NCBI GenBank assembly: GCA_021737785.1
Contig: JAIPDI010000040.1
Coordinates: 1 to 50,537, forward strand
DNA: 50,537 nucleotides
Direction: 5' to 3'
DNA from: Deltaproteobacteria bacterium
GTDB taxonomy: Bacteria > Desulfobacterota > DSM-4660 > Desulfatiglandales > Desulfatiglandaceae
Part shown: one piece after another, positions 30,364-41,495 of the stretch
How the letters are laid out: each line of letters opens with the position of its first letter
How positions within the stretch are numbered: position 1 is the stretch's first letter
Program-made: the position numbers and the translations under genes
Notes under the pieces: model-generated
Told to the model about the DNA's origin: nothing
Database searches by the model: none
Seen by the model: the letters and a program-made list of their open reading frames with translations, nothing else

Positions 30364-30753
30364 ATGGACATGAAACAAGGATGGGTAATGTGGATACTTC
30401 TGGTTGCCTTTCTCATGCCCGGACGGGTCGGGGCGGTAGAAAAGGATGACTTCTTGGTGGACACCACGGGCGACCTGATTGCACTCTGCACCGCGCCTGC
30501 GAGCGATCCGCTCCACAAGGAAGCGACGCATTTCTGCATCGGCTTTTTGGTGGGAGCCTATCACTACCATGTGGTGGCCACCATGGGTCCCGATGGAAAA
30601 CGGCTGGTGTGCCCGCCCGATCCGCCGCCGCCACGGGTCCAGGTCGTAACCCGGTTTGTGGACTGGGTCAAGAATCATCCCGAGTATCTGAATGAAGAAC
30701 CGGTGGATACATGGTTCAGATTTTTGATCGAAACCTATCCATGCAAAAATTAG
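30364..30753 (+). CDS. Rap1a/Tai-family exported protein
   Basis: A 129-residue protein with a signal peptide (ends VGA-VE). The mature part has the Rap1a/Tai pattern: a short TTGDLIALCTA start, HFCIGFLVGAYHYH in a helix, PPPRVQVV, and a C-terminal amphipathic helix ending ETYPC, with conserved Cys pairs for disulfides. Rap1a is a type VI secretion immunity protein, but many members in environmental bacteria lack any effector partner and none is seen here. AAAGGAGG lies three bases before ATG 30364 and nine before ATG 30370; either could be the start. Confidence 0.75.
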   Translation: MDMKQGWVMWILLVAFLMPGRVGAVEKDDFLVDTTGDLIALCTAPASDPLHKEATHFCIGFLVGAYHYHVVATMGPDGKRLVCPPDPPPPRVQVVTRFVDWVKNHPEYLNEEPVDTWFRFLIETYPCKN

Positions 30754-30779
30754 ATCCACGGATCAGAAGGGAGGCGGTC

Positions 30780-31052
30780 ATGACCAAGATCACAATATCA
30801 TTGATTCTGGCCTTATGCCTTGCCCTGGGGGGATGTGCGGGCATGAGCCAGACAGAGCAGCGGACCCTGAGCGGCGGGGCATTGGGCGCTGCCGGAGGGG
30901 CCATTGTAGGGGCCATTGCGGGGAATGCAGGACTTGGGGCGGCCATCGGCGGCGCGGTCGGCCTGGGCAGCGGCTATCTCTACGGCAAGCACAAAGATTC
31001 CGAAAAAGAGGCCTACCAGAAGGGATATGAGGCCGGTCGGCAGGGTCGGTAG
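30780..31052 (+). CDS. Glycine-zipper lipoprotein
   Basis: A 90-residue lipoprotein with lipobox LGGC (Cys19) and a run of Gly/Ala repeats (GGALGAAGGAIVGAIAGNAGLG, broken by AAIGG) forming a glycine zipper, as in SlyB/Pcp-like or Rick_17kDa proteins. The C-terminus is charged and helical. It likely anchors in the outer membrane. GGGAGG upstream of ATG 30780 fixes the start; it lies 26 bases after the Rap1a-like gene and is probably co-transcribed. Confidence 0.85.
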   Translation: MTKITISLILALCLALGGCAGMSQTEQRTLSGGALGAAGGAIVGAIAGNAGLGAAIGGAVGLGSGYLYGKHKDSEKEAYQKGYEAGRQGR

Positions 31053-31104: not shown

Positions 31105-31423
31105 CTATTCCTGGACCAGGCCGTCGATCCCGACACCCTTGAGCGATTCCAGTGCATCGGCCACCAGGCGGATGTCCTGTTTTTGGTTCAAGACGCTTCC
31201 ATGCTGCGGTGCAATTATCTCCATATCCAGTTCCTTTATCTTCCGAACGGCATGCCGGAGCGCCTTTTCACAGGGCATCACGCTTCGATGAAACCGGATC
31301 ATGTCCGGGAAAGGGCAATAGGTCTTATGGGCCGGGGTGACCCACGCCCCTGACTCAAGTGTAATCTGGAACAGCGGCCGGGAAATTCTTACAGGAATAG
31401 AAAATACCAGCTTGGACGGTTAT
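31105..31423 (-). pseudogene. 3' remnant of a metallo-beta-lactamase-fold gene
   Basis: About 105 stop-free codons without a start. The translation includes LFQITLESGAW, HKTYCPFPDM, RFHRSVMPCEKALR and EIIAPQHGSVL. The last motif, with its His, is the C-terminal metal-ligand region of MBL-fold flavodiiron/ODP-type proteins. An upstream in-frame stop lies at about 31422, exactly where the deacetylase gene ends, so the N-terminal two thirds are gone. A 65-residue frame from an internal ATG at 31302 might be called as a gene, but it lacks the catalytic domain. Confidence 0.65.
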
Positions 31424-32256
31424 TTGCAATCCTGATCCGGCGCATGGTCCCTGGTTTCGGTCACCATCACCGGCCGGCCGATGAGTTGAGACAGGGGGTA
31501 GACGGTGAAGCCCCGTTCCCTGATGCCCGATAATATCAGTTCGATTTCATTCACCCAGTGCGAAAGGGCGTCATCCGGGGGCATGGTATCGTGGAGGGCG
31601 ATAATGTCATCGGGACGGAGGCGTTTCAGGATTCTTGCAGAGAGATTTCTGATCCGGCGGTTCCCGGCATCAACGGCCCGGCAGCTGAAGTTCACCGTGT
31701 ACATCTCCAATTTTCCAAGGACCTTCCCCAGCCTGGGGTTGGTAATGCCGACTGGCGGCCGGAAGGCCAGGGGCCTGATTCCGAAGTTGTGCAAAATCTC
31801 CTGTGTAGATTGAATCTCTTTCATGAGGGTCTTGGCGCCCTTTAACATGATGAAATTGTCGTGACTGTAGGAATGGTTCCCGATGGAATGCCCCAGTGAC
31901 AGGATGTCCATAATCAGCTCGGGATGATGAAATGCCTTTTCTCCTGTCACAAAAAACGTCCCCGGGACCTGATATTTTTGAAGGAGTCGAAGCAATTCAG
32001 GGGTAGATCGGGGATCGGGGCCGTCATCAAAGGTGAGGGCCACGGCCTTTTCCCCTGATGTCCCTTTGCTCACCACGGGAAGAAAGAAGCTGAAGCGGGG
32101 TAGAAAGGGCGCCGCAACACAGAGGAGGAGATATATCCCCAGAGGCATTGCGGAGAGCCTTGGCTCCACAAAGAAGAGGAGGATGGCTGCCGCGAAGGAG
32201 ACGAATCCCGCCACATGCGCGGGGGAGAGATGGAAATCCGCTGGTTGCAGGTTCAT
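31420..32256 (-). CDS. Membrane-anchored polysaccharide deacetylase (NodB domain)
   Basis: A 278-residue protein. Two hydrophobic helices (~14-60) are followed by a carbohydrate esterase 4 domain: TFDDGPD (Asp77, Asp78), metal ligands His128 and His132 in NHSYSH, FRPPVG, and C-terminal ALHDT. These residues bind the metal and catalyse N- or O-deacetylation of glycans. The active site probably faces the periplasm. It lies downstream of the RND-methyltransferase gene on the same strand, across a 153-base low-complexity gap, so it may modify a glycan or glycolipid handled by that locus (inference). Confidence 0.88.
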   Translation of the reverse strand: MNLQPADFHLSPAHVAGFVSFAAAILLFFVEPRLSAMPLGIYLLLCVAAPFLPRFSFFLPVVSKGTSGEKAVALTFDDGPDPRSTPELLRLLQKYQVPGTFFVTGEKAFHHPELIMDILSLGHSIGNHSYSHDNFIMLKGAKTLMKEIQSTQEILHNFGIRPLAFRPPVGITNPRLGKVLGKLEMYTVNFSCRAVDAGNRRIRNLSARILKRLRPDDIIALHDTMPPDDALSHWVNEIELILSGIRERGFTVYPLSQLIGRPVMVTETRDHAPDQDCK

Positions 32257-32360
32257 TTATTCCCCTGTCCAAAGATACTCGTTGCCCGTTGCGCGTTGCC
32301 GGTTATTCATTGCCGTTGACTCCTTACTGTCTACTGCGTACTGCTTACTCTCGGTCATTG

Positions 32361-32432
32361 CAAGTTCTCTTACCCTCTCACCTTCTTACCCTCTCACCCT
32401 CTCATCCTCTTACCTTCTCACCTTCTCTTCCT
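32361..32432. repeat. Polypyrimidine tandem repeat
   Basis: Degenerate 9-18-base units of the type TCTCACCCTC/TCTTACCTTC repeat for ~70 bases. The unit GAGAAGGTAA on the minus strand provides the last codons and stop of the RND-methyltransferase gene. Confidence 0.7.
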
Positions 32433-35400
32433 CGCGGGCCTTTCCAATGAACCATACGGATTCCTCGTTGGATTGGAGCGGTCTTACGGGTTCGCAGGCG
32501 AATCCCCCATTAACGATCATCTCCTTGATCTTTTCAACAGATCTGAAGTATGCCGGTGTCCTGGATATCCACATCTTTATGGCCTGGACCTTCCACATGA
32601 AGGAGCCGCTTTTCAGCGGCCGAATAACGGCCCTGACCACCAGAATGCCGTCACGGCCAAGTTTACTGCGGATGTTCTCCAGGGTTGCCCGCAAGTCCTC
32701 ATCGTTCAGGAAATGGATCACATCCAGAATAATGGCCGCATCCGCCGGCTCCGGGGGCGTGGGGACATGGGGCGCGTTGCCGCATTGGACTTCCCCCCGT
32801 CCGCCAATGGCAATGGAGGCCACCCTCACCCTCTCGGGATCGGGGTCAATTCCATAGACCTTTGCCCTGGGATACCGTTCAAGAAGCCAGCATGCAGGGA
32901 CCCCGTAGCCGATGCCGATATCGATGATGGTTCCGACCGCACGGGAAGGATCAAAAAAGCGGGGCAGATCTGAAAACATCGGGTCGATCATGAGTTTGAA
33001 ACGCGCAAACAATCTGTAATAGGGTTCCATTTGTCTGTATCGTCCCAGGACGGGATCGGAATTTTTTCCAAGGGTCTCGGGGTTTCCTGCCCCGGCCCGG
33101 AACAGATGGTTCAAGAGGGGCGGCAATATGAGAAACGCGCCGATGAGGGCATAGCTGATTCCGAGAAGGGATGTCACCCCCGCGCTTTTCAGCATCGAAT
33201 GCTCGGCAAACACCAGGGCGGCAAACCCGATGATGGTGGATGCGGATGCCATGAACACCGTCATCCGGATGAGTTGGAAGGAAGGATGAGAGGCATCCCC
33301 GTATCGCTGATACGCCCTGACGATGAAGAGGGAATAATCGATGCCCATGCCCACAACCACGATGGACAGCATAAGCCCCGGTATATCCAGCGGGTGTCCG
33401 ATGAGGTTCAGGGTCCCTAGGGTACTGACCAGGGCAAACAGGATGGGTAAGAGGGATACGAACGTGAGTTTCCAGTCGAGGAAAAAGAGGATGAGAAGAA
33501 GAATGACACTTACCCCTACCACCACCAGCATCTTGGTGAATGTGGAGAAGAGGAGATTTCCCATCCTCACGGAAAAGAGGCCCGGATCAAATATCTTTCC
33601 GAAAGCGCTGTATGCGGTGTAGAATTTCTCACCATTATAGGAGTCGCCGGGCGTGAAACTCGACACCTGGATCCATCCATGGCCGTCGTCTCTCTTTGCG
33701 ATGCCAAGAAGGTCCAGCAGGTTTTCGGGAATATCCGTGGATCCCGGCTGAGACGGGGGACTCAGGAGCATCTCATAGAAAGGCGCGAACGCATCGGCGG
33801 TAAACCCCATGTCGGATGTTACGGAAAACCCCTCTTTCAATTCCGCAATCCTGCCGGGATTCCAGAATCGGGTCCATGCCTCCAGATTTTCTTTGCTGCG
33901 CGCCTTGCCGGGAAAAACCATCGAGGGAACAAACCCGGAGAAAATCACCCGGGTCGCCATATCCGTTTCCACGGCCCGGAGCAGCCTGTCTCCCGTGGTC
34001 TGAATATCTTCGACGCTTTCTCCCTCTGTCAGCAGGAATGTTTTTTGGAATATGTCGGTTCCCCACACCTTTGACACCTCTGTTTCAGCGGCAGCGGTGT
34101 CCTCGGAGACCGTATTCATGGCATTCAGATTTACATTGAATTCCGGCTTTGCAAAAAAAAGCATGCCCCCGGCGAAAAGGAGTGCGGCAATTGCCCCGGG
34201 TTTCCCCAAAGAAAATAACGTCTCCACAACAGGGCGGAGGGGAAGACCCCTGGGTTTTGCAGGGGGCATGGAGGGGAGGATCATCGGAAAAACCGTATGA
34301 ACGAATATGAATGAGAATGCAATGCCGAATGCGGTGAACTGGCCGATCTGTTCAAACAGGGGAAATCCGGAGAGACTCAGGGCCCCGAAAGCGCCGATGG
34401 TGGTCAGGGCGGCCAGCAACCCGACGGCGCGTATCTCTCCTGAGGCCTCTTTGCCGGATGTGGCATGGGGCTGATCCAGAAACAGGAGAAAGGCGATGGC
34501 ATGATCCACGGTGATGGAGATGACCGCTGCGCCGAATCCCAGGACCATGATGGAAATTGAGTTGTGGAGGATGGAGAAGAGAAAAAACGCGGCCACGGTC
34601 CCGGCGATTGCCGGCAGAAAGGCAAACAGACCCAGCAGCGGTCTGGGAAAGCCGAGGATGAGGAGGAGCGAGATGCCCGCCGTTACCAGGAGGATCGCCT
34701 TCCGAACATCTTGTTTCGCGATGATCTCGTTATCCAGGGCCGCCCGGTATGCGCCGACCGGGGTGAAGGTGATGCAGTTCTTTTTTTCAGGGCAGTCTCT
34801 GCGGATCTGAGCTTCTATGGTTTCAAACAGATCCGCCAGTTTTCCTGCAAAGGCGGTATCGGTGCTGGAAACCTTCGGATGGGTGACCAGGAGGAGGTGC
34901 TTTCTGTCAGGGGTCATGATTTTACCCCTGTATATGTCGATCTCCTGCAGCGGCGCAAGATGGGAGAGCCTGGCCAGGACCAGATTTTTCAGCCCCAGAG
35001 GGTCTGTTGAGATGAATTGGGCTTGACCGATTCCTCCCAGGCTGTGCAATTCGGTTTGAATGTCTTTCAGCCGCTTGCGTATGGCGTCCCCTTCCAGCAG
35101 GGGGGTCACCTTGTCGTGGAGGTCCTTTTCCGTGAACAGGACCGGCAGACGGTTCGCGATATGGGTGATCAGTTGGGGCATGAGGCGTTGAAAATTTTCC
35201 GTCCCCACCTCCTCAAAAAGCCCGCTCGCCTTCAGCTTTTGCTCCACCTGTTCGCTGAATTCGACAAGGGTATCCGGGTCTCCTTCGGGATGTCCGATAT
35301 CAATGATGAGCCGGTCCAGTGTAGGATGGTTCCTGAAAACATATCCCGCATCTGAGATCACCGGATCTTTCCTGGGAAGATAACGGGTGATGTCCGTATC

Positions 35401-35493
35401 TATCTCGATCCGATACAGGGCGGCAATGAAAAGGCCTGCTACGAGAACCGATGATAGAATCAATGCACGAAAATTAATGGTGATGGATTTCAT
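32410..35493 (-). CDS. RND/MMPL-family exporter fused to a SAM methyltransferase
   Basis: A 1027-residue fusion. Residues ~1-800 are an RND exporter of the MMPL type: N-terminal helix, a periplasmic loop (~35-245), five to six helices with the conserved GFGAAVISITVDHAIAF segment, a second periplasmic loop, and a second helix block with GMGIDYSLFIVRAYQ. Residues ~815-1027 are a class I methyltransferase with motif I IDIGIGYG (~856) and acidic GIDPDPERV. Exporters of this type move lipids or lipid-linked products. The four-base ATGA overlap with the glycosyltransferase stop makes them an operon. The stop codon lies inside a pyrimidine repeat. A single frame spans the junction, so this is a true fusion, not two genes. 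Confidence 0.88.
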   Translation of the reverse strand: MKSITINFRALILSSVLVAGLFIAALYRIEIDTDITRYLPRKDPVISDAGYVFRNHPTLDRLIIDIGHPEGDPDTLVEFSEQVEQKLKASGLFEEVGTENFQRLMPQLITHIANRLPVLFTEKDLHDKVTPLLEGDAIRKRLKDIQTELHSLGGIGQAQFISTDPLGLKNLVLARLSHLAPLQEIDIYRGKIMTPDRKHLLLVTHPKVSSTDTAFAGKLADLFETIEAQIRRDCPEKKNCITFTPVGAYRAALDNEIIAKQDVRKAILLVTAGISLLLILGFPRPLLGLFAFLPAIAGTVAAFFLFSILHNSISIMVLGFGAAVISITVDHAIAFLLFLDQPHATSGKEASGEIRAVGLLAALTTIGAFGALSLSGFPLFEQIGQFTAFGIAFSFIFVHTVFPMILPSMPPAKPRGLPLRPVVETLFSLGKPGAIAALLFAGGMLFFAKPEFNVNLNAMNTVSEDTAAAETEVSKVWGTDIFQKTFLLTEGESVEDIQTTGDRLLRAVETDMATRVIFSGFVPSMVFPGKARSKENLEAWTRFWNPGRIAELKEGFSVTSDMGFTADAFAPFYEMLLSPPSQPGSTDIPENLLDLLGIAKRDDGHGWIQVSSFTPGDSYNGEKFYTAYSAFGKIFDPGLFSVRMGNLLFSTFTKMLVVVGVSVILLLILFFLDWKLTFVSLLPILFALVSTLGTLNLIGHPLDIPGLMLSIVVVGMGIDYSLFIVRAYQRYGDASHPSFQLIRMTVFMASASTIIGFAALVFAEHSMLKSAGVTSLLGISYALIGAFLILPPLLNHLFRAGAGNPETLGKNSDPVLGRYRQMEPYYRLFARFKLMIDPMFSDLPRFFDPSRAVGTIIDIGIGYGVPACWLLERYPRAKVYGIDPDPERVRVASIAIGGRGEVQCGNAPHVPTPPEPADAAIILDVIHFLNDEDLRATLENIRSKLGRDGILVVRAVIRPLKSGSFMWKVQAIKMWISRTPAYFRSVEKIKEMIVNGGFACEPVRPLQSNEESVWFIGKAREEEKVRR

Positions 35494-36200
35494 TTGTGTG
35501 ACAGTGCCAGCATGCCGATAAGGAGGATCACGACAAAGATATGGATTCCGATGATGAGGGTCTTGTTAAGATGATAGAATTCGTTCATCTTCTGTAAACA
35601 CTGAAGTCCCCCGCACATTCTCCTGAATCTGTCCAATGGGAGATACCTCTGGTTGTCTGAACGGGAATTGCTCTGAAATGCAAAAGACGGATAAATTGCG
35701 TAAAAACGGTCCTCCTTCAAGTCGCGCAGCATATCGTCAAACGGCACCTTCTGCCAGGGGACGGTCACCAGGTGTCTTGCGAAGCGGGGGTTCACCACAT
35801 AGGCGTGACACAGGCTTCGGAACCGGACATGCAGAACGGATCGGTTTGCTGTTCTGCTGCTCTGTTTGACCATGCATCCCAGGAACAATATGTTCCAGTC
35901 GGGTTGTTTGGATATGAAATCGATGGCGTTTTTGAGGGTCTCAGGCCTGAACCGATCGAAACAGATATCATCTTCAAAGATGACCATGTTGGCGGCCCCT
36001 GCCTGGAGCCCTTTTCTCATGCAGCGCATATGGGATTCATAGATCCCCTCTTCACAGTCAAAAGGATGCTTGTGGACCAGGACGAATTCGACCTTGTCCG
36101 CCAGCCCCACTGCCCTGAACTGTCCCTGGGCCTCTTCCCGCCGGTCCGGACGTTCAATCAACGAAATACAGTAGATTTTGTCAAAATACTCCCAGTACAC
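35490..36200 (-). CDS. GT25-like glycosyltransferase with C-terminal membrane anchor
   Basis: About 236 residues. IYCISLIERPDRRE at the N-terminus, NMVIFEDDICF (Asp-Asp pair) and AYVVNPRFARHL match glycosyltransferase family 25 (LPS/lipooligosaccharide-type). A hydrophobic C-terminal helix (KTLIIGIHIFVVILLIGML) anchors it in the membrane, which is not usual for GT25. The GTG at 36200, with GGAG eight bases upstream, is preferred because the family fold begins right there; the frame stays open to an ATG at 36341 but the extension is not protein-like. It is the first gene of the minus-strand operon. Confidence 0.78.
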   Translation of the reverse strand: MYWEYFDKIYCISLIERPDRREEAQGQFRAVGLADKVEFVLVHKHPFDCEEGIYESHMRCMRKGLQAGAANMVIFEDDICFDRFRPETLKNAIDFISKQPDWNILFLGCMVKQSSRTANRSVLHVRFRSLCHAYVVNPRFARHLVTVPWQKVPFDDMLRDLKEDRFYAIYPSFAFQSNSRSDNQRYLPLDRFRRMCGGLQCLQKMNEFYHLNKTLIIGIHIFVVILLIGMLALSHK

Positions 36201-36739
36201 GGCAGATTCTCCGTCACTGTTCCTCCCGCACCCAGGTCCCCCAACCGGACGTAATCGGAGATGAGAGCCGCCTTTAACGGGCCCTTCTTGTGAAAAAACT
36301 TGATTGTTCAACGGCGATTGGCTTAGACTCTTTTTTTGCAACTTCTACGCAATGAACACCCCTGAGGGGACCCCGGTTCAACGAAGCAGGCGAAGGACCC
36401 CTTGGACGCTATGCCTCCGGAAAAGGAGATTCGGGATCCTGGAGCATCTCGTTGATCGTTTTGAGAATGAATTTTGATGGTCTTGTAAAAAGTCAGGAAA
36501 TGTCATTTTTCGTCATTCCGGCGAAAGCCGGAATCCAGTCCCGCAATAGCGGGATTCAATCAGTTACAAAACCTCTGGACCCCGTTTTTCAACGGGGTGA
36601 CGACTTTTTACGAGACCATCAATTTTGAAAGAAAACAGGAAACACGCACAGGCATGGTTTTACATAGTTCCATGAGAGAATTCAACCCAATTTCGGTTGG
36701 GTCTTTGATTTGGCGATCTTCTGAAAAACGACGGAAATC
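36201..36739. other. Divergent control region of the lipid/glycan locus
   Basis: It separates the minus-strand GT25/RND set from the plus-strand ketosynthase set and should contain both promoters. A MITE-like palindrome (36474-36622) fills its centre. I see no strong promoter pair outside it. Confidence 0.5.
36474..36622. repeat. MITE-like palindromic element
   Basis: Terminal inverted repeats of ~21 bases: TTGATGGTCTTGTAAAAAGT at the left and ACTTTTTACGAGACCATCAA at the right, one mismatch. Inside are three hairpins: TTCCGGCGAAAGCCGGAA, TCCCGCAATAGCGGGA and CCCCGTTTTTCAACGGGG. The first is the REP core seen at 14510 and 45163. Confidence 0.8.
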
Positions 36740-37114
36740 ATGAACCGGCTAATGGAAAAACTCCTGACAAGAATCGCGGGGACCAGATTCGTCCGCACTG
36801 CAATGGAAGAGGGGGCCGATCTGAGCGCCTTTCGCCAAAGGCCGAGTCCCCGAATGATTGTGGGCATATCGGCCATAGGCATCAGCTACATTATCGGATG
36901 GCCCGCGGTGGGCCTGCTGGGAATCCTCTCCCTTCATCTGCATGAGCCCCTGATCGTGGCCATCGGCGGTCCCATGACTTATGGATTGTCCCATGTGGTC
37001 TTTATCCTCGGGATGTATCTGGCCGGCGCCCAGTATGCGAGGATATTTTTCCGGTGGGCCACACGGGTGGCCATGGAGAGACTGACGGGTCATCACAAGG
37101 GGCTTGACGGTTGA
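36740..37114 (+). CDS. Small membrane protein of unknown function
   Basis: A 124-residue protein with a charged N-terminal helix, two to three membrane segments (~40-65, ~70-110) and a basic C-terminus. The stretch GISAIGISYIIGWPAVGLLGIL and the later HVVFILGMYLAG are strongly hydrophobic. I do not recognise a family. It is the first gene of the plus-strand set, with the ketosynthase starting within ~30 bases of its stop, so a membrane role in the same pathway is likely (inference from context). Confidence 0.7.
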   Translation: MNRLMEKLLTRIAGTRFVRTAMEEGADLSAFRQRPSPRMIVGISAIGISYIIGWPAVGLLGILSLHLHEPLIVAIGGPMTYGLSHVVFILGMYLAGAQYARIFFRWATRVAMERLTGHHKGLDG

Positions 37115-37142
37115 CAGGGACTTCCGCAAAGATGAAGCGCCG

Positions 37143-38288
37143 ATGAGATCCGACCCTGCCCAGGCGTGGATCGTCCACCTTGCCGCAGTGACCTCTCTGG
37201 GCGGCAGCCTTCAGGAACTGTGGGAGAGGCTCCTGGCCGGGCAGACCGCCATCAGACCGGTGTCCAGATTTTCTACGGCCGGGTACACGTCCGATGTTGC
37301 GGCCTGCATCCCCGATCTGGCTTCCGTGGCCGGGAAATCCATGATGCACGATCTGCTCCATCGACTGGCACAGGAGATCGGACCGGTGCCGTCAGACGCC
37401 TTTCTCATCACTGCAACCACCAAGGGAGGGATAGACAGCCTGGAAAGATTACAGCGGGGGGGCTGTGCCGATTACCGGGATCTCCTCCTTTCCTCCCTGC
37501 CGGAAATCCTGGGCCGTCGCCTCGGGCTGAAACATGCGGGCATCAACATCAGCGCGGCCTGTGCCTCCTCCACCATCGCCGTGGCCAGGGGGGCGGCCAT
37601 GATCGCTTCGGGCATGAGGGATGCGGTGCTGGTCTGCTGTGCGGATCTGGTGACCGAATTCGTGTTTTCGGGCTTCTCGTCATTGGGCGCGTTGTCCCCT
37701 GTCCCCTGCATGCCGTTTGACCGGAGACGGCGCGGGATGTCTCTGGGGGAAGGCGCGGCATCCCTCCTGTTGATGAGCCGGGACCGGGCCCGTAAGGAGA
37801 ACAGGCCTGCCCTGGGAAGAATCCTGGGATGGGGCGCAGCCAACGATGCCTCCCATATTACTGCCCCGGCAAGAGACGGCTCGGGTCTGATAAAGGCCGT
37901 CACAGGGGCCCTGAAACAGGCGGGGCTGGCCGCGGAGCAGATATCCGCCGTCTGCGCCCACGGTACCGGGACGGTTCATAATGACGCCATGGAATTGACC
38001 GCCTTCCATCGGGTGTTCGGCAACCATACGCCCCCGCTGTTTTCCGTAAAAGGCGCTATCGGCCATGCCCTGGGGGCGGCGGGCGGCATTGAAGCGGCCT
38101 TGGGCGCAAAGGCCCTTTCCCGGCAGACGGTACCTCCCACAACGGGATTTCTGGAACCGGAAACCGGCGCAGAAGGATGGGTGCACGGGGATCCTGTGCG
38201 CATTTCCGGCGACTGTCTCCTGTCTACCAATTCGGGTTTCGGCGGCATAAATGCCGCCATTATCCTGGGGAAGGGGACCCCCGAATGA
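37143..38288 (+). CDS. Beta-ketoacyl synthase (FabF-like)
   Basis: A 381-residue ketosynthase with the full Cys-His-His set: Cys140 in SAACASS, His273 in CAHGTGT and His308 in GHALGAAGG, plus the closing NSGFGGINAA. It should condense acyl-ACP with malonyl-ACP. It is shorter at the N-terminus than FabF and diverged from fatty-acid enzymes. ATG 37143 gives a sensible N-terminus; a TTG at 37104 in frame overlaps the preceding gene. It ends in a four-base overlap with the chain-length-factor-like gene, a pairing known from aryl polyene and type II polyketide systems. Confidence 0.9.
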   Translation: MRSDPAQAWIVHLAAVTSLGGSLQELWERLLAGQTAIRPVSRFSTAGYTSDVAACIPDLASVAGKSMMHDLLHRLAQEIGPVPSDAFLITATTKGGIDSLERLQRGGCADYRDLLLSSLPEILGRRLGLKHAGINISAACASSTIAVARGAAMIASGMRDAVLVCCADLVTEFVFSGFSSLGALSPVPCMPFDRRRRGMSLGEGAASLLLMSRDRARKENRPALGRILGWGAANDASHITAPARDGSGLIKAVTGALKQAGLAAEQISAVCAHGTGTVHNDAMELTAFHRVFGNHTPPLFSVKGAIGHALGAAGGIEAALGAKALSRQTVPPTTGFLEPETGAEGWVHGDPVRISGDCLLSTNSGFGGINAAIILGKGTPE

Positions 38289-38998
38289 CCGCTGCGGTCA
38301 TTGGTATGGGCTGGATAACCGCCGCCGGGATGGGACCGGGCGGTGACCGGAAGGGGTTTGCCGTGACAGCCGGTGAATTGCCGCGACTCGCCCGAAAACG
38401 GGTTTTGGATACCCCCTGCCCGCACTTTGGAAGGATGGACGACCTGTCCCGGCTGGGCCTGGCAGCCATCGGATTTGCGTTGAAGGATGCGCACCTGGCC
38501 GAATGGACACAACCGCGGGATATCGGCATTATTGCTGTCAGTGTCTGCGGGTGTCTCCGGACTGACATGGACTACTTCGAGACAGTGATGCCGGACGGGG
38601 GGCGGATGGCCAGCCCGGCCCTCTTTTCCTATACCCTTCCCAACGCTTTTTTGGGTGAGGCGGCAATATGTTTCGGACTTACGGGGACCGGTTACGTGAT
38701 CAATGACGCTTCTCCTTCAGGGCTGGCCTGCCTGCATGCCGCTCTGGAGGGCATTGCCGGTGGTGAGGTGGAAAAGATGGTCTGCGGGTTCTGCGATCCG
38801 GGGTGTCCCCCTGAATTTTTCCTGCCCGTCAAAGGCCCTGCGGGCGCCCTCTTTTTTGTACTGGAAAAGGTTCCGGAAGACGGCCGGTCATCCTACGGGA
38901 CCCTCCGTCTCGACAGACGCGGCAGGGTCTTTTTCAACGGGGAAGAGATCGAAACCCTGGTCCAACTGGGCCACGCATGTTCGACGCCATCCCATTAA
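38285..38998 (+). CDS. Chain-length-factor-like half ketosynthase (PF13723 type)
   Basis: A 237-residue protein equal to the N-terminal half of a ketosynthase. At the active-site position it reads NDASPSGLACLHAAL, with Ser143 where a ketosynthase has Cys, and no HGTGT/GHxxGAAG half follows. This length and the missing Cys are typical of the beta-ketoacyl synthase chain-length-factor family found beside ketosynthases in aryl polyene clusters; it probably forms a heterodimer with the upstream enzyme and sets product length. It overlaps the ketosynthase by ATGA. Confidence 0.8.
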   Translation: MTAAVIGMGWITAAGMGPGGDRKGFAVTAGELPRLARKRVLDTPCPHFGRMDDLSRLGLAAIGFALKDAHLAEWTQPRDIGIIAVSVCGCLRTDMDYFETVMPDGGRMASPALFSYTLPNAFLGEAAICFGLTGTGYVINDASPSGLACLHAALEGIAGGEVEKMVCGFCDPGCPPEFFLPVKGPAGALFFVLEKVPEDGRSSYGTLRLDRRGRVFFNGEEIETLVQLGHACSTPSH

Positions 38999-39002
38999 TA
39001 AA

Positions 39003-39815
39003 ATGGTCTCCTTGAATCCATCCCCTCCCGTTTCCGGTTTGCAGGCGACCCCGTACGGGGACCGGCCGGATCCGGCCCGGATCAAAATCCTCATTGTCAT
39101 ACCGGTATACAATCACGCTGCCACCCTTCGAAACGTTGTCATAGAGGCGCTTCAGATCCACAAGGAGGTATTGGTTGTGGATGACGGCAGCATTGATGAC
39201 GCTGCAGGCCTGCTTCAGGGCCTCAACATGCACCTGATCCGTCATCCCCGAAACCTCGGCAAGGGCGCGGCCATTATCACCGCCACCCGGGAGGCGCGAC
39301 GATTGGGGATGACCCATATTGCGACCATTGACGCCGACGGCCAGCACAACCCCAAGGAGTTCAAACGATTTCTTCCTTTGATAGAGGAAGCGCCGGATGC
39401 CGTTATCGTTGGGAAGCGCGATTTCGAACATGCGGATGTTCCCCGTGCAAATCAATTGGGAAGGGGGATTTCCAACTTCTGGCTGAGGCTCCAGACCGGA
39501 AGGAATCTGGGAGATGCACAGAGCGGTTTTCGCGTCTACCCCTTATGGGTCCTGGAAGGGTTGAAACTGGTTGAAAAACGCTACACCTTTGAGATCGAGG
39601 TGCTGGTCAAGGCGGCCTGGGCCGGTGTTGAATTGCTGGAAACGGATATTTCGGTCTATTATCCCCGGGGAGAGGCGCGGGTTAGTCATTTTCACCTCTT
39701 TTGGGACAACCTTCGGCTCAGCCGGCTCAACGCCAAGCTTACCCTGAGATCCATTCTTCCCTGGCCGCACCGGAAGCTCTTGGATCATCGAAAAAACGGG
39801 TCTGCTGCAACGTAG
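39003..39815 (+). CDS. GT2 glycosyltransferase, dolichol-phosphate mannosyltransferase type
   Basis: A 270-residue GT-A enzyme: VIPVYNHAATL (~34), VVDDGSIDD (~58), and the DXD-like TIDADGQHNP (Asp110/Asp112), followed by VGKRDF and DAQSGFRVYP. These match DPM1/DPG-synthase-like GT2 enzymes that move a sugar to a lipid phosphate. It has no multi-span membrane block. ATG 39003 lies four bases after the previous stop, so it belongs to the same operon. A GT2 is a common member of aryl polyene-type clusters, often fused there to an acyltransferase that is missing here. Confidence 0.9.
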   Translation: MVSLNPSPPVSGLQATPYGDRPDPARIKILIVIPVYNHAATLRNVVIEALQIHKEVLVVDDGSIDDAAGLLQGLNMHLIRHPRNLGKGAAIITATREARRLGMTHIATIDADGQHNPKEFKRFLPLIEEAPDAVIVGKRDFEHADVPRANQLGRGISNFWLRLQTGRNLGDAQSGFRVYPLWVLEGLKLVEKRYTFEIEVLVKAAWAGVELLETDISVYYPRGEARVSHFHLFWDNLRLSRLNAKLTLRSILPWPHRKLLDHRKNGSAAT

Positions 39816-39962
39816 CCGCAACCCGAAAATGTCTCACACAAAGGCACAGAGACACAAAGAGACAAAAAAGGATTTCTTGTTTTTTGTGGCGGAAAGCCAT
39901 TGCCTGGCATTGCGAATTTTTGAGTTCAGGAATTGGGGGATCTAAGAAATTTGCAGAGGTCT

Positions 39963-40046
39963 AAATTATTCTGCCGAATGTCTTTGTTTCAATCATTTTG
40001 CCCCAAATTATTCTGCCAAATGTCTTTGTTTCAATCATTTTGCCCC
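39963..40046. repeat. 42-bp direct tandem repeat, two copies
   Basis: The 42-base unit (AAATTATTCTGCC... ending TTTTGCCCC) occurs at 39963-40004 and 40005-40046 with one or two differences. It lies just before the radical SAM start at 40062 and leaves little room for a promoter. Confidence 0.85.
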
Positions 40047-40061
40047 GAATGAGGATTTCAC

Positions 40062-41495
40062 ATGCGAATCGTACTTGTTCATCCCGCCGGGTCCAACTGG
40101 GTGCCGGGAAAACGGGATATCACGCCAACAGCCAATCGGATGGCGCCGCTGGGTCTCCTCTCCATCGCCGCGTTCCTCGAAAGGAGAGGGCACCGGGTAT
40201 TTGTCCACGACTGCCTGGGGCCCGGGGCCCCTCAGGGAAATGCGGCCAACGCCCGGATCATCCTCGACCATCGTCCCGACATGGTCGGGTTTTCCGCGAC
40301 CACATCCGGATTCCTTGACGGGTACGCGCTTGCAACAATGATCAAGGAGGCCGTGCCCCGGATCCGGACGGTGTTTGGCGGGGTGCACATCTCTGCATTA
40401 GGCGCCGCCATCCTTGAGGACTACCCCAACATCGATTTCCTCTGCCCGGGCGAAGGGGAGGGGACCCTGGAAGCCCTTGCATCCGGGGAGGACCCTCACC
40501 AAATGGAGGGTCTTATTTTCAGGGATCACGGCCATCCCGTAACCAACCCGCCCAGGGCCCACATCCCTGACATGGACGCGCTCCCGTTCCCGGCTTATGA
40601 AAAACTGGCGGGCTTTCCAAAGGGGTACAACCTCCCCCTGTTCAGCTACATCCTGGGACCCGGCGCAACCATGATCACCAGCAGGGGATGTCCCTATCAA
40701 TGTTCATTCTGCGACCGGTCCGTCTTCAAAAAGGGGTATCGCTACAACTCGGCCGAATATATCTATGAGCACATGAAATACCTGGGGACGCGTTTCAAGG
40801 TCCGTCATATCAATATCTACGACGACCTGTTCACGGCCCACCGCCGGCGTATTCAGGAACTCTGCGACCGTCTCATCAGAAGACCTCTGGGCATGCAGTT
40901 CAACTGTGCGGTGCGGGTAGGGCATGCGGATGATGACCTGCTGCGAATGCTCAAAGATGCCGGATGCCTCCAGGTCTCAGTGGGGATCGAGAGCGGGGAT
41001 CCTCAGCAGATAGAGGTTTTAAAGGAGGGGGTGAGCCTGGAAGCGGTGAGGGATACAGTGAGACGTATCCAGGCGACGGGGCTCAGGGCAAAGGGGCTGT
41101 TCATGATGGGGCTCCCCGGAGATACGGAGGCCTCGATCCAGAGGACCGGCGACTTTGTCATGTCGCTTGGGCTCGACGACATGAACATGTCCAAGTTCAC
41201 GCCGTTTCCCGGGGCGCCCGTCTGGTCCACCATATTCGAACAGGGGACGTTCGACAATGACTGGCGCAAAATGAACTGCCTCAACTTTGTGTTCGTGCCA
41301 AAGGGGATCGGGTCAAAAGAACGGCTTGACGAACTTTACAATCGATTTGTCAAAAGGTTCTATTCAGATGAGGGCTGGCGCAGGAGATTTCGCGGAAGGC
41401 TATGGCAGCACCGAAGGAGCCTCTGGCATCTTCTTGTCCACCTCCCGACGTTTCTGGCGGCCAAGCGCAACTTCGAACCCACAGGAGAAGATTAG
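40062..41495 (+). CDS. B12-binding-domain radical SAM protein
   Basis: A 477-residue class B radical SAM enzyme. Residues ~1-140 are a Rossmann-like cobalamin-binding domain (MAPLGLLSIAAFLERRGH, VGFSATTSGF, FGGVHIS). The radical SAM cluster motif is Cys210-x3-Cys214-x2-Cys217 in GCPYQCSFC, and VGIESGDPQQI is the typical SAM-binding strand. Related enzymes are methylases, BchE-like cyclases and hopanoid modifiers; the substrate cannot be told. The lack of a clear DxHxxG means base-on/His-on cobalamin ligation is not expected. It follows the GT2 gene by 246 bases in the same direction and may modify the product of the ketosynthase locus. Confidence 0.9.
   Translation: MRIVLVHPAGSNWVPGKRDITPTANRMAPLGLLSIAAFLERRGHRVFVHDCLGPGAPQGNAANARIILDHRPDMVGFSATTSGFLDGYALATMIKEAVPRIRTVFGGVHISALGAAILEDYPNIDFLCPGEGEGTLEALASGEDPHQMEGLIFRDHGHPVTNPPRAHIPDMDALPFPAYEKLAGFPKGYNLPLFSYILGPGATMITSRGCPYQCSFCDRSVFKKGYRYNSAEYIYEHMKYLGTRFKVRHINIYDDLFTAHRRRIQELCDRLIRRPLGMQFNCAVRVGHADDDLLRMLKDAGCLQVSVGIESGDPQQIEVLKEGVSLEAVRDTVRRIQATGLRAKGLFMMGLPGDTEASIQRTGDFVMSLGLDDMNMSKFTPFPGAPVWSTIFEQGTFDNDWRKMNCLNFVFVPKGIGSKERLDELYNRFVKRFYSDEGWRRRFRGRLWQHRRSLWHLLVHLPTFLAAKRNFEPTGED

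Follow-up and report, generated by a model that had tools for sequence, protein, structure and literature searches.

A divergent ketosynthase/half-ketosynthase locus of a Desulfatiglandaceae bacterium as a likely displaced segment of a polyene-type acyl lipid gene cluster

The ketosynthase (KS)/half-KS locus described here probably belongs to a single large cluster of genes for a polyene-type acyl lipid, from which it has been displaced, with the rest of the set located on a second contig (C24) of the same genome. The locus occupies 31.4-41.5 kb of the window (the whole stretch of DNA analysed, a contig of 50,537 bases), and the C24 genes are found at approximately 52.9-77.8 kb of an 85 kb contig. 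The combined set is a split, radical SAM-equipped relative of the aryl polyene (APE) and "ladderane-like" clusters, and its product, as predicted from sequence, is probably an exported polyene-type glycolipid. The initial annotation of the window had proposed a glycosylated lipid, and a glycosylated, exported lipid is retained as the likely product class; its suggestion of a reduced pathway borrowing fatty-acid enzymes was not upheld, as dedicated genes are present on C24 and adjoin the window genes in three relatives.

The eight ORFs of the locus (Table 1) are all intact by the criteria of contig ORFs, profile searches and relatives, and they form two operons, one on the minus strand (deacetylase, MMPL-methyltransferase and GT25) and one on the plus strand (small membrane protein to radical SAM enzyme), so that the eight-gene inventory and divergent arrangement given in the initial annotation were borne out. 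No acyl carrier protein (ACP) is encoded on the window contig, and when the window was searched by tblastn with the C24 set, the FabG, dehydratase, ACP and thioesterase queries all remained without a match. The earlier statement that ACP and reductive enzymes are absent thus holds for the window and fails for the genome, where they are present on C24. There is no sign of foreign GC content in the locus (0.558, window 0.551).

Table 1. Features of the KS/half-KS locus in the window
Feature	Position	Strand	Evidence and remarks
PDA polysaccharide (N-)deacetylase, N-terminal membrane segments	31420..32256	-	PF01522 7.5e-30
RND/MMPL exporter + C-terminal SAM-dependent class I methyltransferase, one ORF	32410..35493	-	PF03176 3.7e-07, Methyltransf_25 PF13649 5e-12
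GT25 glycosyltransferase, C-terminal membrane segment	35490..36341	-	PF01755 1.5e-06
Small membrane protein, 124 aa	36740..37114	+	No family; conserved in relatives
KS, likely start ATG 37143	37104..38288	+	PF00109/PF02801
Half-KS, 237 aa, presumed chain-length-factor partner of KS	38285..38998	+	PF00109 6.4e-10 (273-aa ORF)
GT2 glycosyltransferase, 270 aa	39003..39815	+	PF00535 5.6e-22
Cobalamin (B12)-binding radical SAM enzyme	40062..41495	+	PF02310 + PF04055

In the alignment the window KS retains an intact Cys-His-His triad. It matches E. coli ApeO (37% over 259 aa, E 2e-40), and in the tree its orthologs form a separate clade near the ApeO and C24 KS-CLF clades. The half-KS, whose ATG overlaps the KS stop codon, is presumed to be the chain-length-factor partner of the window KS; it lacks both the Cys at the catalytic place and the C-terminal KS domain (alignment, seven relatives) and has a profile match to the half-KS of an anammox-type cluster (Prob 96.9, E 1.9e-10). 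An orthologous relationship to ApeC is not supported, neither blastp nor hhalign having given a sequence match, and the predicted half-KS structure (mean pLDDT 42) was set aside. The window GT2 resembles the N-terminal half of ApeJ (35% over 230 aa, E 2e-33), and it is without the C-terminal membrane domain that its counterparts in L008, L011, G067 and L013 possess. In tblastn the gene appeared to be broken by a stop codon, but the downstream frame is non-homologous and we therefore regard it as a shorter GT2. The MMPL part matches ApeM (23% over 622 aa, E 3e-14), and the methyltransferase domain fused to it has no match to ApeB. This fusion is not a frame artefact, because it recurs in three relatives (L008/G024, G065 and G078), in which the GT25 gene adjoins the fusion gene and the deacetylase counterpart adjoins the MMPL gene. 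The anammox-type cluster likewise encodes a deacetylase close to its head, at the position of kuste3351, with 30-32% similarity to that of the window. The small membrane protein belongs to no Pfam or NCBIfam family and is conserved in L008 (79%) and G078 (64%). In G066/G067, whose clusters are compact, an ortholog of the radical SAM enzyme (44%) adjoins GT2.

Contig C24 encodes three ACPs, FabG, ApeI- and ApeP-type dehydratases, an ApeR-type KS, an ApeO-ApeC-like KS-CLF fusion, thioesterases, acyltransferases (PlsC and LpxL), LolA and a PPTase. It also encodes four additional radical SAM proteins, which brings the radical SAM total of the two loci to five, including a MoaA-like pair. The ApeR-type KS (KS1) matches ApeR (40%, E 3e-96) and groups with it at support 100/99; FabG matches ApeQ (46%, E 7e-73); and the dehydratases were recognized as ApeP-like (PF22817, 2.7e-09) and ApeI-like (PF22818, 1e-09). 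The KS-CLF fusion matches ApeO (E 3e-57, PF13723) and, weakly, ApeC (E 4e-05), and further matches pair ACP2 with ApeE, TE1 with ApeK, LolA with ApeL, PlsC with ApeD, and LpxL with the second half of ApeJ. Both the window locus and the C24 locus are flanked on either side by unrelated genes. A misassembly may be the source of the split, but because the loci sit inside their contigs between unrelated genes, an assembly break is unlikely to be its sole cause.

A gene-neighbourhood search, as proposed in the initial annotation, revealed that the KS/half-KS gene set recurs in one planctomycete as well as across Desulfobacterota. In L008/G024, G065 and G078 the window genes are neighbours of C24-type genes, and in G065 (contig C14) nearly the whole set is contiguous, from FakAB through KS and ACP to a ligase of the fatty-acid type. 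The KS/half-KS pair is also found inside compact complete clusters in Desulfobacterota (G066, G067, G396, G397, G449, G380, G177, G308, G165 and G279) and in the planctomycete L013. Among 46 genomes of the family, the window KS and the C24-type module occur together in 12, the KS alone in one, the module alone in two and neither in 31, and both are confined to the same 6 of 23 genera. For the KS and the KS-CLF fusion in 85 genomes of the order, the counts (both, either alone, neither) are 13/4/4/64 (Fisher p 6e-9, uncorrected for relatedness). The discordant genomes, some of which are incomplete MAGs, are G033 with the KS but no module found, and G016, G018, G023 and G045 with module parts and no KS. 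The KS/half-KS/GT2 operon is separate from the remaining genes in the majority of the family. The initial annotation had itself raised the counter-reading that the KS pair belongs to a complete cluster broken only here, and this is what C24, the linkage in G065, G024 and G078, and the compact clusters point to.

The reduced stand-alone pathway, in which the KS/half-KS would rely on primary fatty acid synthesis for ACP and reductive enzymes and supply a glycolipid with a short acyl chain, could account for the lack of ACP, ketoreductase and dehydratase in the window and for the several relatives in which the KS/half-KS/GT2 operon is alone on its contig. However, the ACPs, ketoreductase and dehydratases of C24 are dedicated, co-occur with the window KS and adjoin it in three relatives, and full clusters elsewhere contain the KS/half-KS pair. 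Because the C24 genes and the contiguous clusters of G065, G024 and G078 were found, we reject this pathway as very improbable. A true aryl polyene pathway, with an aromatic acid loaded on ACP, extended to a conjugated polyene and esterified to a membrane lipid, is in our view rather unlikely. Most genes of the E. coli CFT073 APE cluster (apeA-R, PMC8253772) have counterparts here, namely those for ApeO, ApeR, ApeE/F, ApeQ, ApeI, ApeP, ApeK, ApeD, ApeJ (GT2 + LpxL), ApeM and ApeL. The second KS of ApeR type (KS1) and the dedicated ACPs, ketoreductase and ApeI/ApeP dehydratases are on C24, and the export and anchoring set (ApeM, ApeL, ApeN, ApeJ, ApeD and ApeK) is represented, with the ApeN-type DUF3261 as a match below cut-off. 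The comparison with aryl polyenes in the initial annotation is thus supported by the KS-ApeO, GT2-ApeJ and MMPL-ApeM matches, as is its view that the radical SAM enzyme and deacetylase go beyond a classical APE cluster. Ammonia lyase and AMP-ligase genes in the G397 and L013 clusters could supply an aryl starter, but functions for its activation were not detected here: PF00221 ammonia lyase is absent from this genome, and inspection of the window and of the C24 stretch revealed no ApeH-type ligase. An aryl starter is thus conjectural here. Not on the list of E. coli APE genes (PMC8253772) are the five radical SAM enzymes, the second KS/CLF pair, extra KSs, the deacetylase, GT25, and the MMPL-methyltransferase, FakA-FakB-like and DH-PPTase fusions; in this genome the half-KS gives no sequence match to ApeC and the cluster is in two pieces.

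In the hopanoid hpnI-hpnK-hpnJ route, a glycosyltransferase (hpnI), a deacetylase (hpnK) and a radical SAM enzyme that changes the ring (hpnJ) act on the head group (PMC12583986). With the MMPL gene hpnN included, the functional types resemble those of the window (glycosyltransferase, deacetylase, B12-radical SAM enzyme and MMPL exporter), and by this analogy the window operon might mainly build a modified amino-sugar head group. GT2, deacetylase, HpnJ-like radical SAM and HpnN-like MMPL proteins do occur together, and HpnJ is the best NCBIfam match in two radical SAM orthologs. Every HpnJ and HpnN score is far below cut-off, however: the window radical SAM enzyme, whose nearest curated family is HpnJ (TIGR03471), scores 185.8 bits where the cut-off is 577.6 and so falls outside it. 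The carrier lipid and deacetylase family differ, the window deacetylase being PF01522, and in the compact clusters the radical SAM gene is retained but no deacetylase adjoins it. We regard this reading as improbable.

Anammox bacteria are the makers of ladderane lipids; we know of no ladderanes outside this group, and the route of their synthesis is, to our knowledge, a long-standing open question. The ladderane-candidate FASII cluster of Kuenenia stuttgartiensis is kuste3335-3352, with a syntenic counterpart in Desulfotalea (PMC2649909, PMC4790861). The cluster of a probable anammox genome follows the published Kuenenia list gene by gene and in the same order; the types of KS, half-KS, MMPL, GT2, deacetylase and radical SAM protein are common to that cluster and the present set. 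HZS_alpha (PF18582) was rejected as sole anammox marker because it matches 77 of 392 genomes of the planctomycete's phylum. The likeness to the Kuenenia/Desulfotalea cluster, in types and partly in sequence, covers KS + half-KS, a TIGR04072 radical SAM protein, FabG, dehydratase, MMPL, GT2, deacetylase and methyltransferases, but the anammox-type proteins are distant (about 22-46%), and the KS-CLF fusion, MoaA-like radical SAM pair and DH-PPTase are extra here. Among the marks of Rattray-type clusters, the score of one C24 radical SAM protein (373.6 bits) exceeds the cut-off of 360 for TIGR04072, the model for ladderane clusters, while a CrtI-type FAD desaturase, present in the compact and anammox-type clusters, was found in neither the window nor the C24 stretch. 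A polyunsaturated or ring-bearing, ladderane-like acyl lipid, in which B12-radical SAM enzymes cyclise or otherwise change a polyene, would agree with the TIGR04072 match, the shared gene types and the unusual polyunsaturated hydrocarbons reported in Desulfotalea (Rattray 2009, PMC2649909). We nevertheless hold it to be unlikely, given that no ladderanes were detected in Desulfotalea (PMC2649909) or in E. coli expressing the Kuenenia genes (PMC4790861), and that the desaturase was not found in the two loci. In the collection of papers searched, nothing relevant connected ladderanes with a chain length factor. More speculative and quite improbable is a wider scheme in which sulfate reducers, planctomycetes and anammox bacteria share an anaerobic APE variant, the polyene acyl-ACP made by KS/half-KS being turned into ring-bearing lipids via cobalamin-dependent radical SAM enzymes. 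The "unknown" anammox protein at the kuste3345 position would then serve the KS next to it as chain-length partner, and the making of ladderanes would be a branch of this machinery.

For the polyene-type glycolipid that we favour, we infer the reactions and the product from gene content, linkage in relatives, co-occurrence and homology. The C24 ACPs, KS-CLF fusion, ApeR-type KS, FabG, ApeI-/ApeP-type dehydratases, thioesterases and PPTase would build the acyl chain in rounds of elongation, reduction and dehydration like those of aryl polyene synthesis, and the window KS and half-KS, as a second KS/CLF pair, may fix a particular elongation range. The B12- and MoaA-like radical SAM enzymes might alter the chain or the head group; PlsC and LpxL acyltransferases with the window GT2 would place the chain on a glycosylated anchor, whose head could be trimmed by GT25, deacetylase and methyltransferase; and the MMPL pump and LolA would carry the lipid to the outer membrane. 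Because the two loci are on different contigs, each between unrelated genes, their joint action is likewise something that we infer. A seemingly reduced gene set on one contig may, as a caution, be half of a dispersed pathway. If this type of cluster, with KS/half-KS, APE-like export and several B12-radical SAM enzymes, is widespread in Desulfobacterota, some of which are culturable and perhaps manipulable, then radical SAM chemistry on acyl-ACP would become testable outside anammox bacteria.

The window locus is real and conserved. It belongs, in split form, to a type of cluster that is equipped with radical SAM enzymes and has aryl polyene (APE) and ladderane-candidate clusters as its relatives. 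All eight genes of the initial annotation (PDA deacetylase, MMPL-methyltransferase (MMPL-MT) fusion, GT25, small membrane protein, ketosynthase (KS), half-KS, GT2 and B12-radical SAM) were found in the window as described. The KS has its Cys, His and His residues in place, the half-KS lacks the Cys and the C-terminal KS domain, and the GT2 lacks the C-terminal membrane domain of about 130 aa that is present in the GT2 of relatives. The absence of ACP and reductive enzymes from the window itself was borne out, as a genome-wide ACP search and a search with the FabG, dehydratase and thioesterase proteins of the C24 module (see below) gave no match there.

The genome-wide ACP search yielded seven matches, three of them clustered on C24, another contig of the same genome, where the window KS as query also detected several further KSs. 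Read over approximately 52.9 to 77.8 kb, the C24 module contains the parts that are absent from the window's own view of the pathway (see table). DAK2 and DegV domains normally form separate subunits of fatty acid kinase, FakA and FakB; their fusion also occurs in genome G065, from another family of the same order, and the dehydratase/PPTase fusion is kept in L008, G065 and genome G078.

Genes of the C24 module, followed by other located features
Feature	Location	Remarks
DAK2-DegV (FakA-FakB-like) fusion	C24:53404-55143 (L045 7405-9144)	579 aa; head of module, after the 4HBT thioesterase
4HBT thioesterase	C24
LpxL-type acyltransferase	C24
ACP, three copies	C24	before ApeR-type KS; after ApeP-like dehydratase; after ApeI-like dehydratase
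ApeR-type KS (KS1)	C24
PlsC	C24
B12-radical SAM	C24	between PlsC and lipoprotein
Lipoprotein	C24	weak DUF3261
LolA	C24
FabG	C24
ApeP-like dehydratase	C24
KS-CLF fusion	C24	726 aa
B12-radical SAM	C24	exceeds TIGR04072 cut-off
ApeI-like dehydratase	C24
MoaA-like radical SAM, two	C24
KS, two	C24	after MoaA-like pair
Thioesterase	C24	after the two KSs
PKS-type dehydratase/phosphopantetheinyl transferase (PPTase) fusion	C24:76277-77794 (L046 11278-12795)	505 aa
Further type II fatty acid-like cluster	C26:65.7-74.5 kb (L048)	several divergent KSs, two FabG, dehydratase-like genes, 187-aa ACP-like protein, ABC transporter
AMP ligase, fatty-acid type	G065, L096 11946-13658	after KS/half-KS and ACP; replaces ApeH-type ligase
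Rap1a immunity-type domain protein	window 30364-30753	PF18602, 2.1e-13
Small glycine-rich lipoprotein-like gene	window 30711-31052	adjoins Rap1a-type gene
Inverted repeat between divergent operons	window 36474-36622	arms of 21 nt with 95% complementarity, spaced by 107 nt; resembles a small mobile or REP-like element
Short tandem repeat	window 39816-40060	within the gap 3' of GT2 (coordinates are those of the gap)

In L008, the locus of a Desulfobacterales MAG (G024, contig C93), the window genes are 71-82% identical and directly follow C24-type genes. On a 111-kb contig of G065 the genes from FakAB to KS, nearly the complete set, are contiguous, together with an added ACP, AMP ligase and second LpxL. 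The initial proposal of a reduced pathway without its own ACP and reductive enzymes is therefore not upheld: these genes are on C24 and adjoin the window genes in L008 and G065. In G078, TE2, the dehydratase/PPTase fusion, small membrane protein, GT25, MMPL-MT, deacetylase, half-KS and KS share a single contig. Most family members, however, carry the KS/half-KS/GT2 operon on a separate contig, whether or not the radical SAM gene accompanies it, and thus the split layout seen here is common. A C24-type module occurs together with the window KS in 12 of 46 family genomes; 1 has the KS alone, 2 the module alone and 31 neither. Of 85 genomes of the order, 13 have both the window KS and the KS-CLF fusion, each is alone in 4, and 64 have neither. 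These counts ignore relatedness and include some incomplete genomes. By genus, window KS and module are found in the same 6 of 23 genera.

The KS is present in 24 of 395 Desulfobacterota genomes. It lies in a compact cluster in G066, G067, G396, G397, G449, G380, G177, G308, G165 and G279, with FabG, KS, CrtI-like oxidoreductase, ApeR-type KS, ACP, PlsC, ApeP, LolA, MMPL, ApeI, thioesterase, KS, half-KS, up to three B12-radical SAM, GT2, LpxL, ACP, KS and a second CLF; not all of these genes are seen in each genome, some clusters are cut by contig ends, and small ACP genes were at times missed by crude ORF calling. Ammonia lyase and AMP-ligase genes are also found in G397 and in the planctomycete locus L013, and a radical SAM protein of C24 has a 58% identical counterpart in the planctomycete.

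When compared with the ape proteins of E. coli CFT073, the window KS resembles ApeO, the GT2 the first half of ApeJ and the MMPL protein ApeM, and C24 proteins match ApeR, ApeQ, ApeP, ApeI, ApeE/F, ApeK, ApeL, ApeD and the second half of ApeJ; the window half-KS, however, is not recognisable as ApeC. In the KS tree, C24 KS1 groups with ApeR (100/99), and the window KS clade is fully supported, whereas its position next to the ApeO/KS-CLF clade is weakly supported (86/73), the ApeO row being long and its placement unsure.

Clusters with radical SAM, CrtI-like, several KS, ligase, glycosyltransferase and deacetylase genes were described in Kuenenia and Desulfotalea (Rattray et al. 2009, PMC2649909), and the Kuenenia genes were listed by Javidpour et al. 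2016 (PMC4790861). In G551, a probable anammox-type genome judging by this gene order and an HZS_alpha match (the latter alone is not diagnostic), a run of genes between the deacetylase and the GT2 has the same order and gene types as that list. The G551 protein at the position of kuste3345 ("unknown"), 195 aa long, gives a profile match to the window half-KS family (Prob 96.9, E 1.9e-10; ApeQ, ApeH, ApeB and GT2, as unrelated controls, reach at most 1.4%). It adjoins a KS, and this points to a partner of chain-length type in that genome as well. The label "ladderane" has already been given to clusters of unknown function in Cariaco Basin Desulfobacterota MAGs (PMC9902471).

For the window radical SAM the nearest families are HpnJ and BchE, both of them B12-radical SAM enzymes without methylation activity (PMC13142503), yet its score is far below the HpnJ cut-off. 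By analogy only, the window radical SAM, GT2, deacetylase and MMPL pump may be likened to the hopanoid head-group set hpnI, hpnK, hpnJ and hpnN (PMC12583986). In the most economical model for the combined loci, the C24 enzymes would build a polyene-type acyl chain and the window KS/half-KS would serve as a further pair for elongation; radical SAM enzymes would modify the chain or head group, the chain would then be placed on a glycosylated anchor, and MMPL/LolA would export the lipid.
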